The notes beneath the pieces were generated by a model. It ran no database searches, was not told the DNA's origin, and saw only the letters and a list, made by a program, of their open reading frames with translations. 45,569 bases of DNA from Thermoplasmatales archaeon SW_10_69_26 (GTDB lineage: Archaea > Thermoplasmatota > SW-10-69-26). The stretch lies in assembly GCA_003009755.1 (NCBI GenBank), contig PXUB01000006.1, positions 1 to 45,569 of the forward strand, written 5' to 3'. Of this stretch, positions 525 through 4,887 are shown piece by piece; positions within the stretch are counted from its first letter, which is position 1, and each line of letters begins with the position of its first letter. Position numbers and translations under genes: made by a program.

Positions 525-596
525 CCGGATCGAAGATCCGGCCTCTGTTCGTGTACGCGATCTTAGATCCACTGTAGGTACACGATCGCGTAGACG
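525..596 (-). terminator. Hairpins at the end of cox3, copy B of the repeat (possible terminator)
   Basis: TACGCGATC (554-562) and GATCGCGTA (584-592) pair across the cox3 stop codon, and the perfect hairpin CCGGATC-GAA-GATCCGG (525-541) follows just downstream on the cox strand. There is no long T-run, so the terminator role is inferred from position only. The same block is repeated at 264-334. Confidence 0.45.
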
Positions 597-1363
597 AACA
601 CCCAAACCAGGTCAACGAAGTGCCAGTAGATCGCGGCGGCTTCGAGGAGCACGTGGCGTTCGGCGTCGAACTGGTCGTGCACGAACGCCCGCCAGGTGAC
701 GACGCCGAGCACGAACAGGCCGGCGAGCACGTGCAAGCCGTGGGTGCCGGTGAGCAGGTAGAAGGTCGTGCCGAACGGGTGCGTGGTGAGGGTCAGGCCC
801 TCGTGGACCAGGTGGTAGTACTCCATCCCCTGGCCGACCATGAAGATGCCACCCAGCAGGAGCGTGAGCAGCATGTGGCCCTTGAACGCGCTCCGATTGC
901 CGATCCGGAGGGCGCTGTGGGCCCAGTGCATCGTGGCGCCGCTGAACAGCAGAACGATCGTGAACATGCCCGTCGTCCCGATCGGGAGATGCGGCGTGCC
1001 TTCCGGTGGCCACATCGCGGCCGTGTCCGCGAAGTTGTAGTACGTCGCGAACAGCGAGCCGAAGATCATGATCTCGCTGCCGATGAACAACAGCACGCCC
1101 CATCGGCCGACGCGGGGGCCGGTGCCGACGCGGTCGTCGAACCACTCGACGTCCTCCCGAAGCCAGCCGAGCCCGGAGACGGCGAACGCGAGGAACCCGA
1201 CGATCAGCATCGGACCGATGCGCAGCTCGCCCAGGCCCGGGTCCCACACGGTCGGGCCGGGCACGATCAGGCCGAGGCCAAGCAGCACGACCCCGAGGCC
1301 GAAGGCCAGCGGCCACCAGCTCTGGTGCGGGAGCTCGTAGGCTTGGGTCTCGGCGTCAGCCAT
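563..1363 (-). CDS. coxC: Cytochrome c oxidase subunit III
   Basis: Subunit III of the heme-copper oxidase, an integral membrane subunit that stabilises the catalytic core. The 266-aa protein is almost entirely hydrophobic with about seven membrane segments. It carries family hallmarks: the segment around SEIMIFGSLFATYYNF, the TGTHGLHVLAG motif and the C-terminal YWHFVDLVWVFVY motif. It starts with ATG directly abutting the cox1 stop codon, with no bases between, so it is co-transcribed with and probably translationally coupled to cox1. Its last codons lie inside a repeated hairpin block. Confidence 0.95.
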   Translation of the reverse strand: MADAETQAYELPHQSWWPLAFGLGVVLLGLGLIVPGPTVWDPGLGELRIGPMLIVGFLAFAVSGLGWLREDVEWFDDRVGTGPRVGRWGVLLFIGSEIMIFGSLFATYYNFADTAAMWPPEGTPHLPIGTTGMFTIVLLFSGATMHWAHSALRIGNRSAFKGHMLLTLLLGGIFMVGQGMEYYHLVHEGLTLTTHPFGTTFYLLTGTHGLHVLAGLFVLGVVTWRAFVHDQFDAERHVLLEAAAIYWHFVDLVWVFVYAIVYLQWI

Positions 1364-2947
1364 CTAGGACGCCTCCTCGGCTTGGACAGCCGGGGTCCCA
1401 GGGCCCGGGCTCTCGGGAACCCAGTCGTCTTGCTCCCACTCGGGCCGCTGTTCGCCGCCCCACGGGTCCTCGTGCACGACCGGTCCGGCCGTGAAGGACC
1501 AGAGAGCGTTGATCATGAACACGAGGATGCCGGCTCCGATCAGGAAGCCGCCGACCGTGGACGCCTGGTTCATGCCGGTCCACCCGGCGCCCGCGGCGTA
1601 GTCGAAGATGCGTCGCCGCATCCCCTGCAGCCCGAGGACGAACTGCGGGAAGAAGGCAACGTTGAACCCGATGAACATGAGCCAGAAGTGGATCTTCGCC
1701 ATCGCCATGTTGTACATCTTGCCGGAGAACATCCGCGGCCACCAGTAGTACAGGGCCGCGAAGATGCCGAACATGGCGCCGCCCACCATCGTGTAGTGGA
1801 AGTGAGCGACGACGAAGTACGTGTCGTGAACGTGCAGATCGAAGGGGACGGCGGCCAACATCACGCCGGTGATGCCGCCGATCACGAACAGCCAGATGAA
1901 GCCCATCGCGTGCAGCATCGGTGGCTTCAGGTCGATGACGCCGCCCCACATCGTCGCCAGCCAGTTGAACACCTTGATTCCGGTGGGGACGGCGATCACC
2001 AAGCTCATCGCCATGAACCCGAGATCTGCGGCGGGGTTCATGCCGGTCGTGAACATGTGGTGGGCCCAGACGAGGAACCCGAGCGAGGCGATGGCGATGA
2101 TCGCGTACGCCATCGAGTGGTACCCGAAGATCGGGCGGTTGCTGAACTTCGACACGACCTCGCTCAAGATCCCGAACGCCGGTAAGATCAACACGTAGAC
2201 TTCGGGATGCCCGAAGAACCAGAACAGGTGTTGGTACAAGATCGGGTCGCCACCTGGCCCGGTGAAGAAGGTGGTGCCGAGGTTGCGGTCGAACAGCAGG
2301 AAGGTGAAAGCGATCGTGACGACGGGCAGCGAGAACAGCAACAGCAGCGAGGTGGCCATCTGCGCCCAGCAGAACAGAGGCATGTTGTGGATCTCGACGT
2401 CCTCGCCACGCATGCCGAAGATCGTGGCCAGGAAGTTCACGCTACCGAGCGTGCTCGCCACGCCCAGCAAGATCAGCCCCATCAGCCACAGGTCCAGCCC
2501 GGTGTTGGGGTCGGCGACGGACAAGGGCGGGTAGCCGGTCCAGCCGACGTTGACGGTCGTGATGCCCGGCACGATGAGCCCAGCCGAGATCATCAGCCCG
2601 GCCGGTGGGATCAACCAGAACGAGAGCGCGTTCACGCGCGGGAACGCCATGTCCGGGGCTTCGAGCATCAACGGCACGAAGTAGTTCGCGAACCCGGCCA
2701 GTGCTGGCTGGATCCACAGGAAGATCATCAGCGTGCCGTGGAGGCTGAACAGCTCGTTGTACGTGCCCCCACTCATGATGTCCTGACCCGGGAAGAACAG
2801 CTCCATCCGAACGAGGAGCGCCGCGACCCCACCGATGATGAAGAACGCGAAGGCAGCCCAGAAGTACAGCAGACCGATGTCCTTGTGGTCGACGGTGGTG
2901 AGCCACCGCTTGATGCCCTCGGGGTTCTCGTGGGCGTCCTCGGCCAT
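1364..2947 (-). CDS. coxA: Cytochrome c oxidase subunit I (aa3-type, A1 family)
   Basis: Catalytic subunit that reduces O2 to water at a heme/CuB site and pumps protons. It has 527 aa and 12 membrane helices. Visible ligands: H70 and H384 (low-spin heme), H382 (high-spin heme), and H247, H296, H297 (CuB), with the cross-linking Tyr251 in GHPEVY. Proton-channel residues of the A1 type are present: D99 in APDMAFPR, E249 in GHPEVY, and K325 in PTGIKVFNW. The ATG start lies 27 bases from a TATA-like box, giving a leaderless or nearly leaderless mRNA. It is divergent from cox2 and first in the cox1-cox3 unit. Confidence 0.98.
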   Translation of the reverse strand: MAEDAHENPEGIKRWLTTVDHKDIGLLYFWAAFAFFIIGGVAALLVRMELFFPGQDIMSGGTYNELFSLHGTLMIFLWIQPALAGFANYFVPLMLEAPDMAFPRVNALSFWLIPPAGLMISAGLIVPGITTVNVGWTGYPPLSVADPNTGLDLWLMGLILLGVASTLGSVNFLATIFGMRGEDVEIHNMPLFCWAQMATSLLLLFSLPVVTIAFTFLLFDRNLGTTFFTGPGGDPILYQHLFWFFGHPEVYVLILPAFGILSEVVSKFSNRPIFGYHSMAYAIIAIASLGFLVWAHHMFTTGMNPAADLGFMAMSLVIAVPTGIKVFNWLATMWGGVIDLKPPMLHAMGFIWLFVIGGITGVMLAAVPFDLHVHDTYFVVAHFHYTMVGGAMFGIFAALYYWWPRMFSGKMYNMAMAKIHFWLMFIGFNVAFFPQFVLGLQGMRRRIFDYAAGAGWTGMNQASTVGGFLIGAGILVFMINALWSFTAGPVVHEDPWGGEQRPEWEQDDWVPESPGPGTPAVQAEEAS

Positions 2948-3074: not shown

Positions 3075-4382
3075 ATGCGCTGGGCCTCTCTCGCCTCGAT
3101 CGTCGCGCTCGTGGTGATCGCTCCCGAGACCCTCGCCTCCTGGGGGATGCCGGACGCGGTCAACGAACGGATGCAGACCATCGAGTCGATCTACCTGCAG
3201 TTGTTGCTCATCGGCGCGGTCGTCTTCCTCGTCGTGTTCGGCTGGCTGGGTTACAACCTCGTCAAGTTCCGTCCCGGTGGCGAGGGTGAACCCTCCTACG
3301 AGGAGCACCGCGGGAACATCAAGGCCGAGGTCATCTGGACCGCGATCCCGATCCTGATCGTCGCCTGGGTGGGCTTCATCAGCTTCGACGGCTTCCAGCA
3401 GTTGCAAGCCGAGCCCGAGGAGCCCGCCGCCGAGATCCAGATGGAGGGCTTCCAGTGGTTCTGGCAGGCGCGCTACAGCGGGGACGTCAGCCTCTCCCAG
3501 CAACCCGGCGACGCCGGCAGCCTCGAGGGCGAGGATCCGTTCCTCATCCCCGCCAACGAACCGGTGGTGGTCAACGTCACCTCCGGCGACGTGCAGCACG
3601 CCTTCGCGATCCCCGAGCTGGGCGTCAAGGCTGATGCCTACCCCGGCGAGACGAACACCGTCTCGTTCACCGCACCCGAGGGCGAGTACATCATCCAGTG
3701 CGCCGAGCTCTGCGGGAACCCCGGGCACGCCTACATGCGCGCCAAGCTGCACGCCGTCCCCCAAGACCAGTACGAGGACTGGATCGCCGAACAGGAGCGC
3801 CAAGCCCAGCTCAGCGGGCAGGCCATCGGGGTGAACATCACGGCTGGGGGCCTGCAGCCCTCCGAGCTCACCGGCTTCGCGGGCGTCCCCACCGATCTCG
3901 TCGTCACCAACCAGGCCGACGAAGCCCGTTCGCTCAGCGTCGAGGGCGTCGAGGACGCCACGACCGACGACATCGAACCGGGCGAGTCCGCTCGACTACC
4001 GGTGAACCTCGAGGCCGGCGAGTACACGCTCGACAGCCAGGGCGACACGGCCACGCTCGACGTGCGCGAGGTCGAGTCGGTGTCCGTCGAGCTCGACGAG
4101 TGGGCGATCCGTGGCGACCGCACGGAGTTCGAGGCCGGCCAAGCCTACCTGTTGAACGTGGAGAACGTCGGCAACAGCGTGCACAACCTCTTGATCGGTA
4201 CCCCCGAAGAGGAGGGCAGCGAGGACGAGGTGGTCTGGCAGACGGAGAACCTCGACCCCGGCGCCTCGACGACGCTGTTGATCCAACCCTCCGAGGACCA
4301 GGTGGGCGACTGGACGTGGTGGTGCGACATCTCCGGCCACTACGCCCAAGGCATGCGCGGCGACATCACCGTCGTCGAGTAG
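3075..4382 (+). CDS. coxB: Cytochrome c oxidase subunit II with fused C-terminal blue-copper domain
   Basis: Subunit II receives electrons at the CuA centre and passes them to subunit I. Residues 1-22 look like a signal peptide; helices lie near 41-63 and 85-105. The first cupredoxin domain (about 115-230) has CuA ligands H175, C209, C213, H218 and M221, plus W128 in the QWFWQ motif. A second cupredoxin-like segment (about 250-332) has no copper ligands. A third domain (about 335-435) has a type-1 copper set: H370, then C417-x4-H422-x4-M427. The usual subunit II ends after the CuA domain, so at 435 aa this is a fusion with a plastocyanin/sulfocyanin-like module, comparable in logic to cytochrome c fusions in caa3 oxidases. 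The ATG at 3075 fits the signal peptide and TATA spacing; the open frame extends upstream without coding character. Confidence 0.93.
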   Translation: MRWASLASIVALVVIAPETLASWGMPDAVNERMQTIESIYLQLLLIGAVVFLVVFGWLGYNLVKFRPGGEGEPSYEEHRGNIKAEVIWTAIPILIVAWVGFISFDGFQQLQAEPEEPAAEIQMEGFQWFWQARYSGDVSLSQQPGDAGSLEGEDPFLIPANEPVVVNVTSGDVQHAFAIPELGVKADAYPGETNTVSFTAPEGEYIIQCAELCGNPGHAYMRAKLHAVPQDQYEDWIAEQERQAQLSGQAIGVNITAGGLQPSELTGFAGVPTDLVVTNQADEARSLSVEGVEDATTDDIEPGESARLPVNLEAGEYTLDSQGDTATLDVREVESVSVELDEWAIRGDRTEFEAGQAYLLNVENVGNSVHNLLIGTPEEEGSEDEVVWQTENLDPGASTTLLIQPSEDQVGDWTWWCDISGHYAQGMRGDITVVE

Positions 4383-4419: not shown

Positions 4420-4887
4420 GTGATGGTCACGTACTGGGGCCTGGCCGCGATCGTCACCGGGATCGTCGCCCTCGTCGCGATCACCGTCGTCGCCAGTCAA
4501 CTGTTCCTCACCTACGGCGAGCGCGCCCGGTGCTCGCGATGCGGGGCCACGCTCGCCGAGGAAGGCGAGGACTGCACCGTGTGCGAGGCTCCGATGGCCC
4601 AGCCCCAGCCCACGGGGACCGAGGGGAACGGCCGCGGCACGATCGAGGTCGACGAGTCCCAGCTCCCGACCAAGGACCCCGAGGCCGGCGCGTTGAACCC
4701 CGGCGTCTCCGAGCGCATGGTGCGCTGGGCGCTGATCGTGATGTTCGCCGGCATCGGCGTGCGCCTGCTCGGCATGCTGGAACCCGTTGGCCTGGACGTG
4801 GGCCTGTCCCAGACCGTCATGGCGACGTTCACCGTCATCGGCGGGATCGCGATGTTCCTGGCGTTCGTTGTGCTCGACCTGGCGTGA
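4420..4887 (+). CDS. Zinc-ribbon membrane protein next to cox2
   Basis: I do not recognise a named family. The 155-aa protein has one N-terminal membrane helix (about 5-28), a cytoplasmic-looking zinc ribbon CSRC...CTVC (about 38-55), a polar linker, and two C-terminal helices (about 100-118 and 130-153). It follows cox2 by 37 bases on the same strand, so an accessory or assembly role for the oxidase is plausible but only inferred. The start is GTG at 4420, immediately followed by an ATG at 4423 that would serve equally well. Confidence 0.75.
   Translation: MMVTYWGLAAIVTGIVALVAITVVASQLFLTYGERARCSRCGATLAEEGEDCTVCEAPMAQPQPTGTEGNGRGTIEVDESQLPTKDPEAGALNPGVSERMVRWALIVMFAGIGVRLLGMLEPVGLDVGLSQTVMATFTVIGGIAMFLAFVVLDLA

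Follow-up and report, generated by a model that had tools for sequence, protein, structure and literature searches.

A predicted type-1 copper domain fused behind the CuA domain of an archaeal cytochrome c oxidase subunit II

Already known are a halocyanin fused to the oxidase subunit CbaD, a haem c domain fused to subunit II (Cox2) of caa3 oxidases, cupredoxins fused to nitrite reductases and, in the archaeal phylum considered here, separate blue-copper donors. According to a published survey, no member of the Thermoplasmatota has a cytochrome c of PF00034 or PF01322, and blue-copper proteins are believed to serve instead (PMC9287336); in the complex III of Angelarchaeales a small blue-copper gene lies upstream of the Rieske gene (PMC9038741). 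The original prediction on the present locus drew a link to such small archaeal blue-copper donors, and this fits the literature (PMC9287336, PMC9038741, PMC8305020). No published fusion with a type-1 domain inside subunit II was found in the open-access papers searched.

The window, i.e. the whole stretch of 45,569 nucleotides that was analysed, contains at 3075..4382 (plus strand) a cox2 (coxB) gene, encoding a cytochrome c oxidase subunit II of 435 amino acids with two extra C-terminal cupredoxin domains. The reading frame, its length and all residue numbers had been predicted correctly, except that H175 was omitted from the list of CuA ligands. The product scores above the NCBIfam cut-off for CoxB and starts with a transmembrane domain (residues 22-104, 3138..3386, plus strand; Pfam COX2_TM) with two membrane helices, modelled at residues 31-64 and 82-111. 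These two helices, the invariant CuA ligands (His, Cys-x3-Cys, His, Met) and the haem-copper oxidase subunit I encoded alongside identify the protein as a CoxB. Subunit I is of the A-type and is encoded by cox1 (1364..2947, minus strand; COX1, 538 bits), divergent from cox2 with 128 bases between the two start codons; residues of the D-, E- and K-channel motifs were recognised by eye in its product, and cox3 (563..1363, minus strand; COX3, 131 bits) lies directly downstream. COX1 and COX2 were each found once in the genome (G000; 2.8 Mb, 95% complete), which has no other haem-copper oxidase. On the other side of cox2, positions 4420-4887 (plus strand) encode a small membrane protein that has two CxxC pairs and a counterpart of which adjoins cox2 in G001 too (39%, L073:13372-13848). 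An assembly or frameshift artefact was ruled out by an independent full-length relative with 51% identity, which comes from this same genome G001 (PWVY01000133, Thermoplasmata archaeon isolate CSSed11_322R1, an isolate name that we take to denote soda-lake sediment).

The CuA domain (residues 121-225, 3435..3749, plus strand) matches Pfam COX2 with 68.7 bits and resembles subunit II of Paracoccus in fold (1ar1/7atn). Its first histidine ligand, H175 (3597..3599, plus strand), is invariant in both alignments, and the ligand loop C209-x3-C213-x4-H218-x2-M221 (3699..3737, plus strand) is one residue above the usual length. It reads CAELCGNPGH, i.e. C-x3-C-x4-H, and a C-x3-C-x3-H spacing is found in 38 of the 42 distinct CuA loops compared; the confidence of the model falls in this region (residues 211-220, mean pLDDT 62). 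Loops of the longer, NPGH type occur only in G000, G001, G151 and G062 (L003, L040, L043 and the window). According to the alignment, the fused Cox2 proteins keep the CuA ligands, and the position of the QW-motif tryptophan (W128) holds Trp in eight and Phe in three of the eleven. With the ligands and this tryptophan kept, CuA should still accept electrons.

The CuA domain is followed by a middle cupredoxin domain (residues 236-330, 3780..4064, plus strand), modelled as β-strands with high pLDDT. It matches Cupredoxin_1 at 29.3 bits (cut-off 27) and contains not a single Cys, His or Met, in agreement with the ligand-free cupredoxin-like segment that had been predicted after CuA. Six of the eleven fusions have a middle domain (G000, G001, G151, G062, G004 and G213); in the other five (G002, G003, G005, G042 and G076) a linker joins the CuA domain to the type-1 domain. 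The middle domain is therefore dispensable. A role as required spacer is ruled out on the same grounds, and the view of it as a spacer, taken in the original prediction, does not apply generally.

The third domain (residues 331-435, 4065..4379, plus strand) is a predicted type-1 (blue) copper cupredoxin. Taken alone it stays below the Pfam cut-off (Copper-bind, 17.6 versus 21.2 bits). An AlphaFold2 model based on 11 sequences has a pLDDT of 95.4 and a pTM of 0.86, and its best Foldseek matches are the auracyanin of Roseiflexus (6kol, 1.6e-7) and AcoP (7z3b, 4e-7), the 50 matches listed all being cupredoxins or multicopper oxidases. When compared with solved structures, a profile of third-domain relatives finds type-1 copper domains with E-values down to about 1e-16. 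The best match is the N-terminal tethered cupredoxin of the Hyphomicrobium nitrite reductase (2dv6/6tfd, 8e-17), and further matches include auracyanin B (3e-11), rusticyanin (6e-8) and 1ov8. Membership of a non-copper family was ruled out by these profile and Foldseek matches. The window protein itself does not match the sulfocyanin family SoxE (PF06525), which is matched by two of the eleven fused members (best E 0.0076). Among the NCBIfam matches listed for the window protein there is no NirK family, and no relative exceeds 18 of 296 bits against the NirK model. A CxxCH haem c domain, as in caa3 oxidases, is likewise lacking, the only three cysteines of the window Cox2 (209, 213 and 417) being at CuA or type-1 positions.

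The putative copper ligands of the third domain are H370 (4182..4184, plus strand) and C417-x4-H422-x4-M427 (4323..4355, plus strand), with W416 just before the cysteine. In the profile alignments these H, C, H and M residues are in register with those of the Hyphomicrobium nitrite reductase domain. H370, C417, G421, H422 and G426 are invariant in all eleven fused Cox2 proteins and M427 is kept in ten, the exception being G042 (L012), in which Leu replaces the axial Met, possibly giving a type-1 site of high potential. An aromatic residue directly precedes the ligand cysteine in ten of eleven, a position that we take to be that of Tyr83 in plastocyanin. The type-1 pattern originally described is thus conserved over the eleven fusions, and a chance motif was ruled out by this conservation. 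Given the predicted β-sandwich and the matching register of its ligands (two His, one Cys and, as a rule, a Met), the fold and type-1 copper site are well supported by prediction; to judge from the profile register and the fold, the ligands would converge on one site, and the domain presumably binds copper. The full-length model (pLDDT 86, pTM 0.65) has a fold match in Paracoccus Cox2 and, over its whole extent, in laccases and three-domain copper nitrite reductases, but leaves the relative placement of the domains uncertain.

A profile search over 390 genomes of the phylum gave matches in 203 genomes, of which few reach into the third domain. Inspection of the candidates showed fusions of Cox2 to a blue-copper domain in eleven genomes, so that the fusion is not an assembly artefact. 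By its one named relative (G001), the phylum is that of Thermoplasmata/Thermoplasmatota. The other fused Cox2 proteins share 26–51% identity with that of the window, and the match coordinates place cox1 and cox2 in divergent orientation in nine of the eleven genomes, the exceptions being G042 and G213. In four fusions (G002, G004, G042 and G076) the C-terminus is formed by a hydrophobic stretch and then basic residues, which from its sequence looks like a membrane anchor; NCBIfam did not find the PGF-CTERM-type signal that was suspected at the C-terminal tail of some fusions. The C-terminal tail of the one haloarchaeal CoxB examined, from Natronorubrum, has no type-1 motif, and among 534 matching records in a search for plasmid-borne Cox2 none had at least 80% of the query covered by one place.

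It is plausible that the fused protein arose from neighbouring genes, because separate blue-copper genes adjoin cox2 both in family f7 (G009, G089, G333 and G378), where an unfused cox2 has a free-standing type-1 copper reading frame next to it, and in Angelarchaeales, where a two-domain blue-copper gene directly follows coxB (PMC9038741). A tree of 19 short domains is poorly resolved and compatible with one or several fusions. That one phylum contains separate neighbouring genes, fusions that include a middle domain and fusions that lack it suggests a carrier in the course of capture by its enzyme.

Contig C42 of the same genome carries an operon for a membrane blue-copper protein (P0002, G000:C42:62177-62953) with a C-x4-H-x4-M motif, a Rieske-like protein, recognised by a TAT signal and a weak NCBIfam match, as well as cytochrome b6 and a subunit IV. 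Homologues of the Rieske protein and of the blue-copper protein, with its copper motif, are likewise found together in G001, G003, G006 and G213. The counterparts of this blue-copper protein in G002, G004, G042 and G076 (L088, L090, L094 and L089) are without a type-1 motif; that of G002 is a choice-of-anchor V domain, and for G042 the match was confined to the membrane segment, the short stretch examined showing neither Rieske nor cytochrome b. Three of these motif-less counterparts, those of G002, G004 and G042, contain C-x-C-H (CTCH, CSCH, CHCH), for which a haem link is conceivable, and that of G076 has only TCH. Contig C42 also encodes a protein of 615 amino acids (L070:3087-4934, minus strand) with weak matches to glucose/sorbosone dehydrogenase and NHL and, at its C-terminus, a plastocyanin-type domain that exceeds the Copper-bind cut-off, which on its domain matches is another enzyme–blue copper fusion in this organism.

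With positive controls in both searches, no PF00034 cytochrome c was found in 17 genomes of the phylum and no PF13442 match above the cut-off in 12 genomes; the genome of the present oxidase has neither. Cytochrome c assembly genes (PF01578) are present in all of 12 genomes (G000:C4:34102-38210 and 11 others), so that there may be an unrecognised c-type haem protein of another kind; within 19 kb around the PF01578 genes there is no CxxCH reading frame of at least 80 amino acids.

The claim of the original prediction that the oxidase and a blue-copper donor have become one by fusion draws support from the fold, the profiles, the eleven genomes, the absence of PF00034 and PF13442 matches, and the complex III operon. 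In the reading that we consider probable, the protein is a subunit II of an A-type (aa3-like) oxidase with a built-in carrier, on a route from Rieske/cytochrome b via a blue-copper protein to the fused type-1 copper, CuA, the haems and O2. The cytochrome b/Rieske complex would oxidise quinol and pass the electron to the membrane-anchored blue-copper protein of its own operon, likely the immediate donor in the source organism. The type-1 copper of the third domain would then receive the electron and hand it to CuA within one Cox2 chain, from where it would reach the haems and O2; in this order of transfer the fused domain would functionally replace cytochrome c, like the fused haem domain of caa3 oxidases. 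In relatives without a blue-copper protein in the complex III operon, transfer to the fused domain would be more direct. In some conformation, at least, the third domain would come close to CuA. A tether is no guarantee of direct transfer, since the copper of the tethered cupredoxin in the Hyphomicrobium nitrite reductase is ~24 Å away from the core copper (PMC7201279).

More tentatively, the chain may work without any diffusing cytochrome c, the anchored blue copper of complex III passing electrons to the fused blue copper of the oxidase with no soluble shuttle, and the longer CuA loop may, in its two families, be adapted to a copper donor.

The complex III operon encodes a membrane blue-copper protein of its own, and CuA and its entry tryptophan are retained; this could also mean that the free protein feeds CuA directly, and that the fused domain binds copper but acts as a docking or recruitment module, holding the blue-copper protein of complex III or building a supercomplex; the tethered cupredoxin of nitrite reductases indeed has roles past simple donation (PMC7201279). 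We regard this as unlikely: a docking module does not need copper ligands, yet these persist across eleven divergent fusions, in contrast to the middle domain, whose ligands are all gone, and the fusions of G002, G004, G042 and G076 keep them (with Leu for Met in G042) although a type-1 motif is missing from the corresponding operon protein. The domain might instead carry no electrons and store or sense copper, or load CuA as a chaperone during assembly; this would agree with tethering beside CuA and with a weak profile similarity to CopI copper-resistance cupredoxins. Such a role seems very improbable, for both the ligands and the loop are of the kind found in type-1 sites that transfer electrons, the third domain of the window has no further His, Met or Cys for copper loading, and with no PF00034 or PF13442 cytochrome c found the oxidase needs another donor. 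It is hardly credible that the third domain is a cupredoxin in decay that no longer binds copper, since, even though the middle domain shows that ligand loss happens in Cox2 and G042 has Leu at the axial Met, the ligands are invariant in all other fusions. An axial Leu or Phe also occurs in working type-1 sites, e.g. those of fungal laccases. The retention of ligands in the third domain and their loss from the middle one makes docking, copper loading and a dead cupredoxin all less likely than a built-in carrier.

A subunit II with a built-in carrier would be a copper counterpart of caa3 oxidase, in which the donor of complex IV is part of subunit II and blue copper stands in for haem c. It bears on the link between complex III and oxygen in archaea without recognisable cytochrome c, and offers a single-chain system in which transfer from type-1 copper to CuA can be measured. 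In the caa3 oxidase of Thermus (2yev) the donor is likewise C-terminal to the CuA domain of Cox2, but it is a haem c, whereas here it would be a type-1 copper domain, in six of the eleven fusions with a ligand-free cupredoxin in between. The halocyanin-CbaD fusion of the ba3-type oxidase of Halobacterium and Haloarcula (OE_4073R) also places an archaeal blue copper on an oxidase subunit (PMC3128077, PMC8305020), and like the window Cox2 it uses a blue-copper carrier, halocyanin, and not cytochrome c. That oxidase, however, is of the B-type and the halocyanin is N-terminal on the single-helix subunit IIa, whereas here the domain stands behind CuA, within subunit II, and the oxidase is of the A-type. 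In three-domain copper nitrite reductases (Hyphomicrobium 2dv6/6tfd; TsNirK of Thermus scotoductus) a cupredoxin donor is similarly tethered to a copper enzyme, but these contain T1 and T2 copper and, unlike the oxidase, neither CuA nor haem. Auracyanin, rusticyanin and AcoP share the fold of the third domain but are free proteins; the C-x4-H-x4-M spacing is the same in rusticyanin (Cys138/His143/Met148; PMC10654088). In the SoxM supercomplex of Sulfolobus, with sulfocyanin SoxE, and in the chains of Thermoplasmatota, it is likewise blue copper, and not cytochrome c, that links complex III to the oxidase. The donors in those chains are separate polypeptides, encoded by an adjacent gene in several orders (PMC9287336, PMC9038741), whereas in the window the putative donor domain is fused to the oxidase subunit itself.
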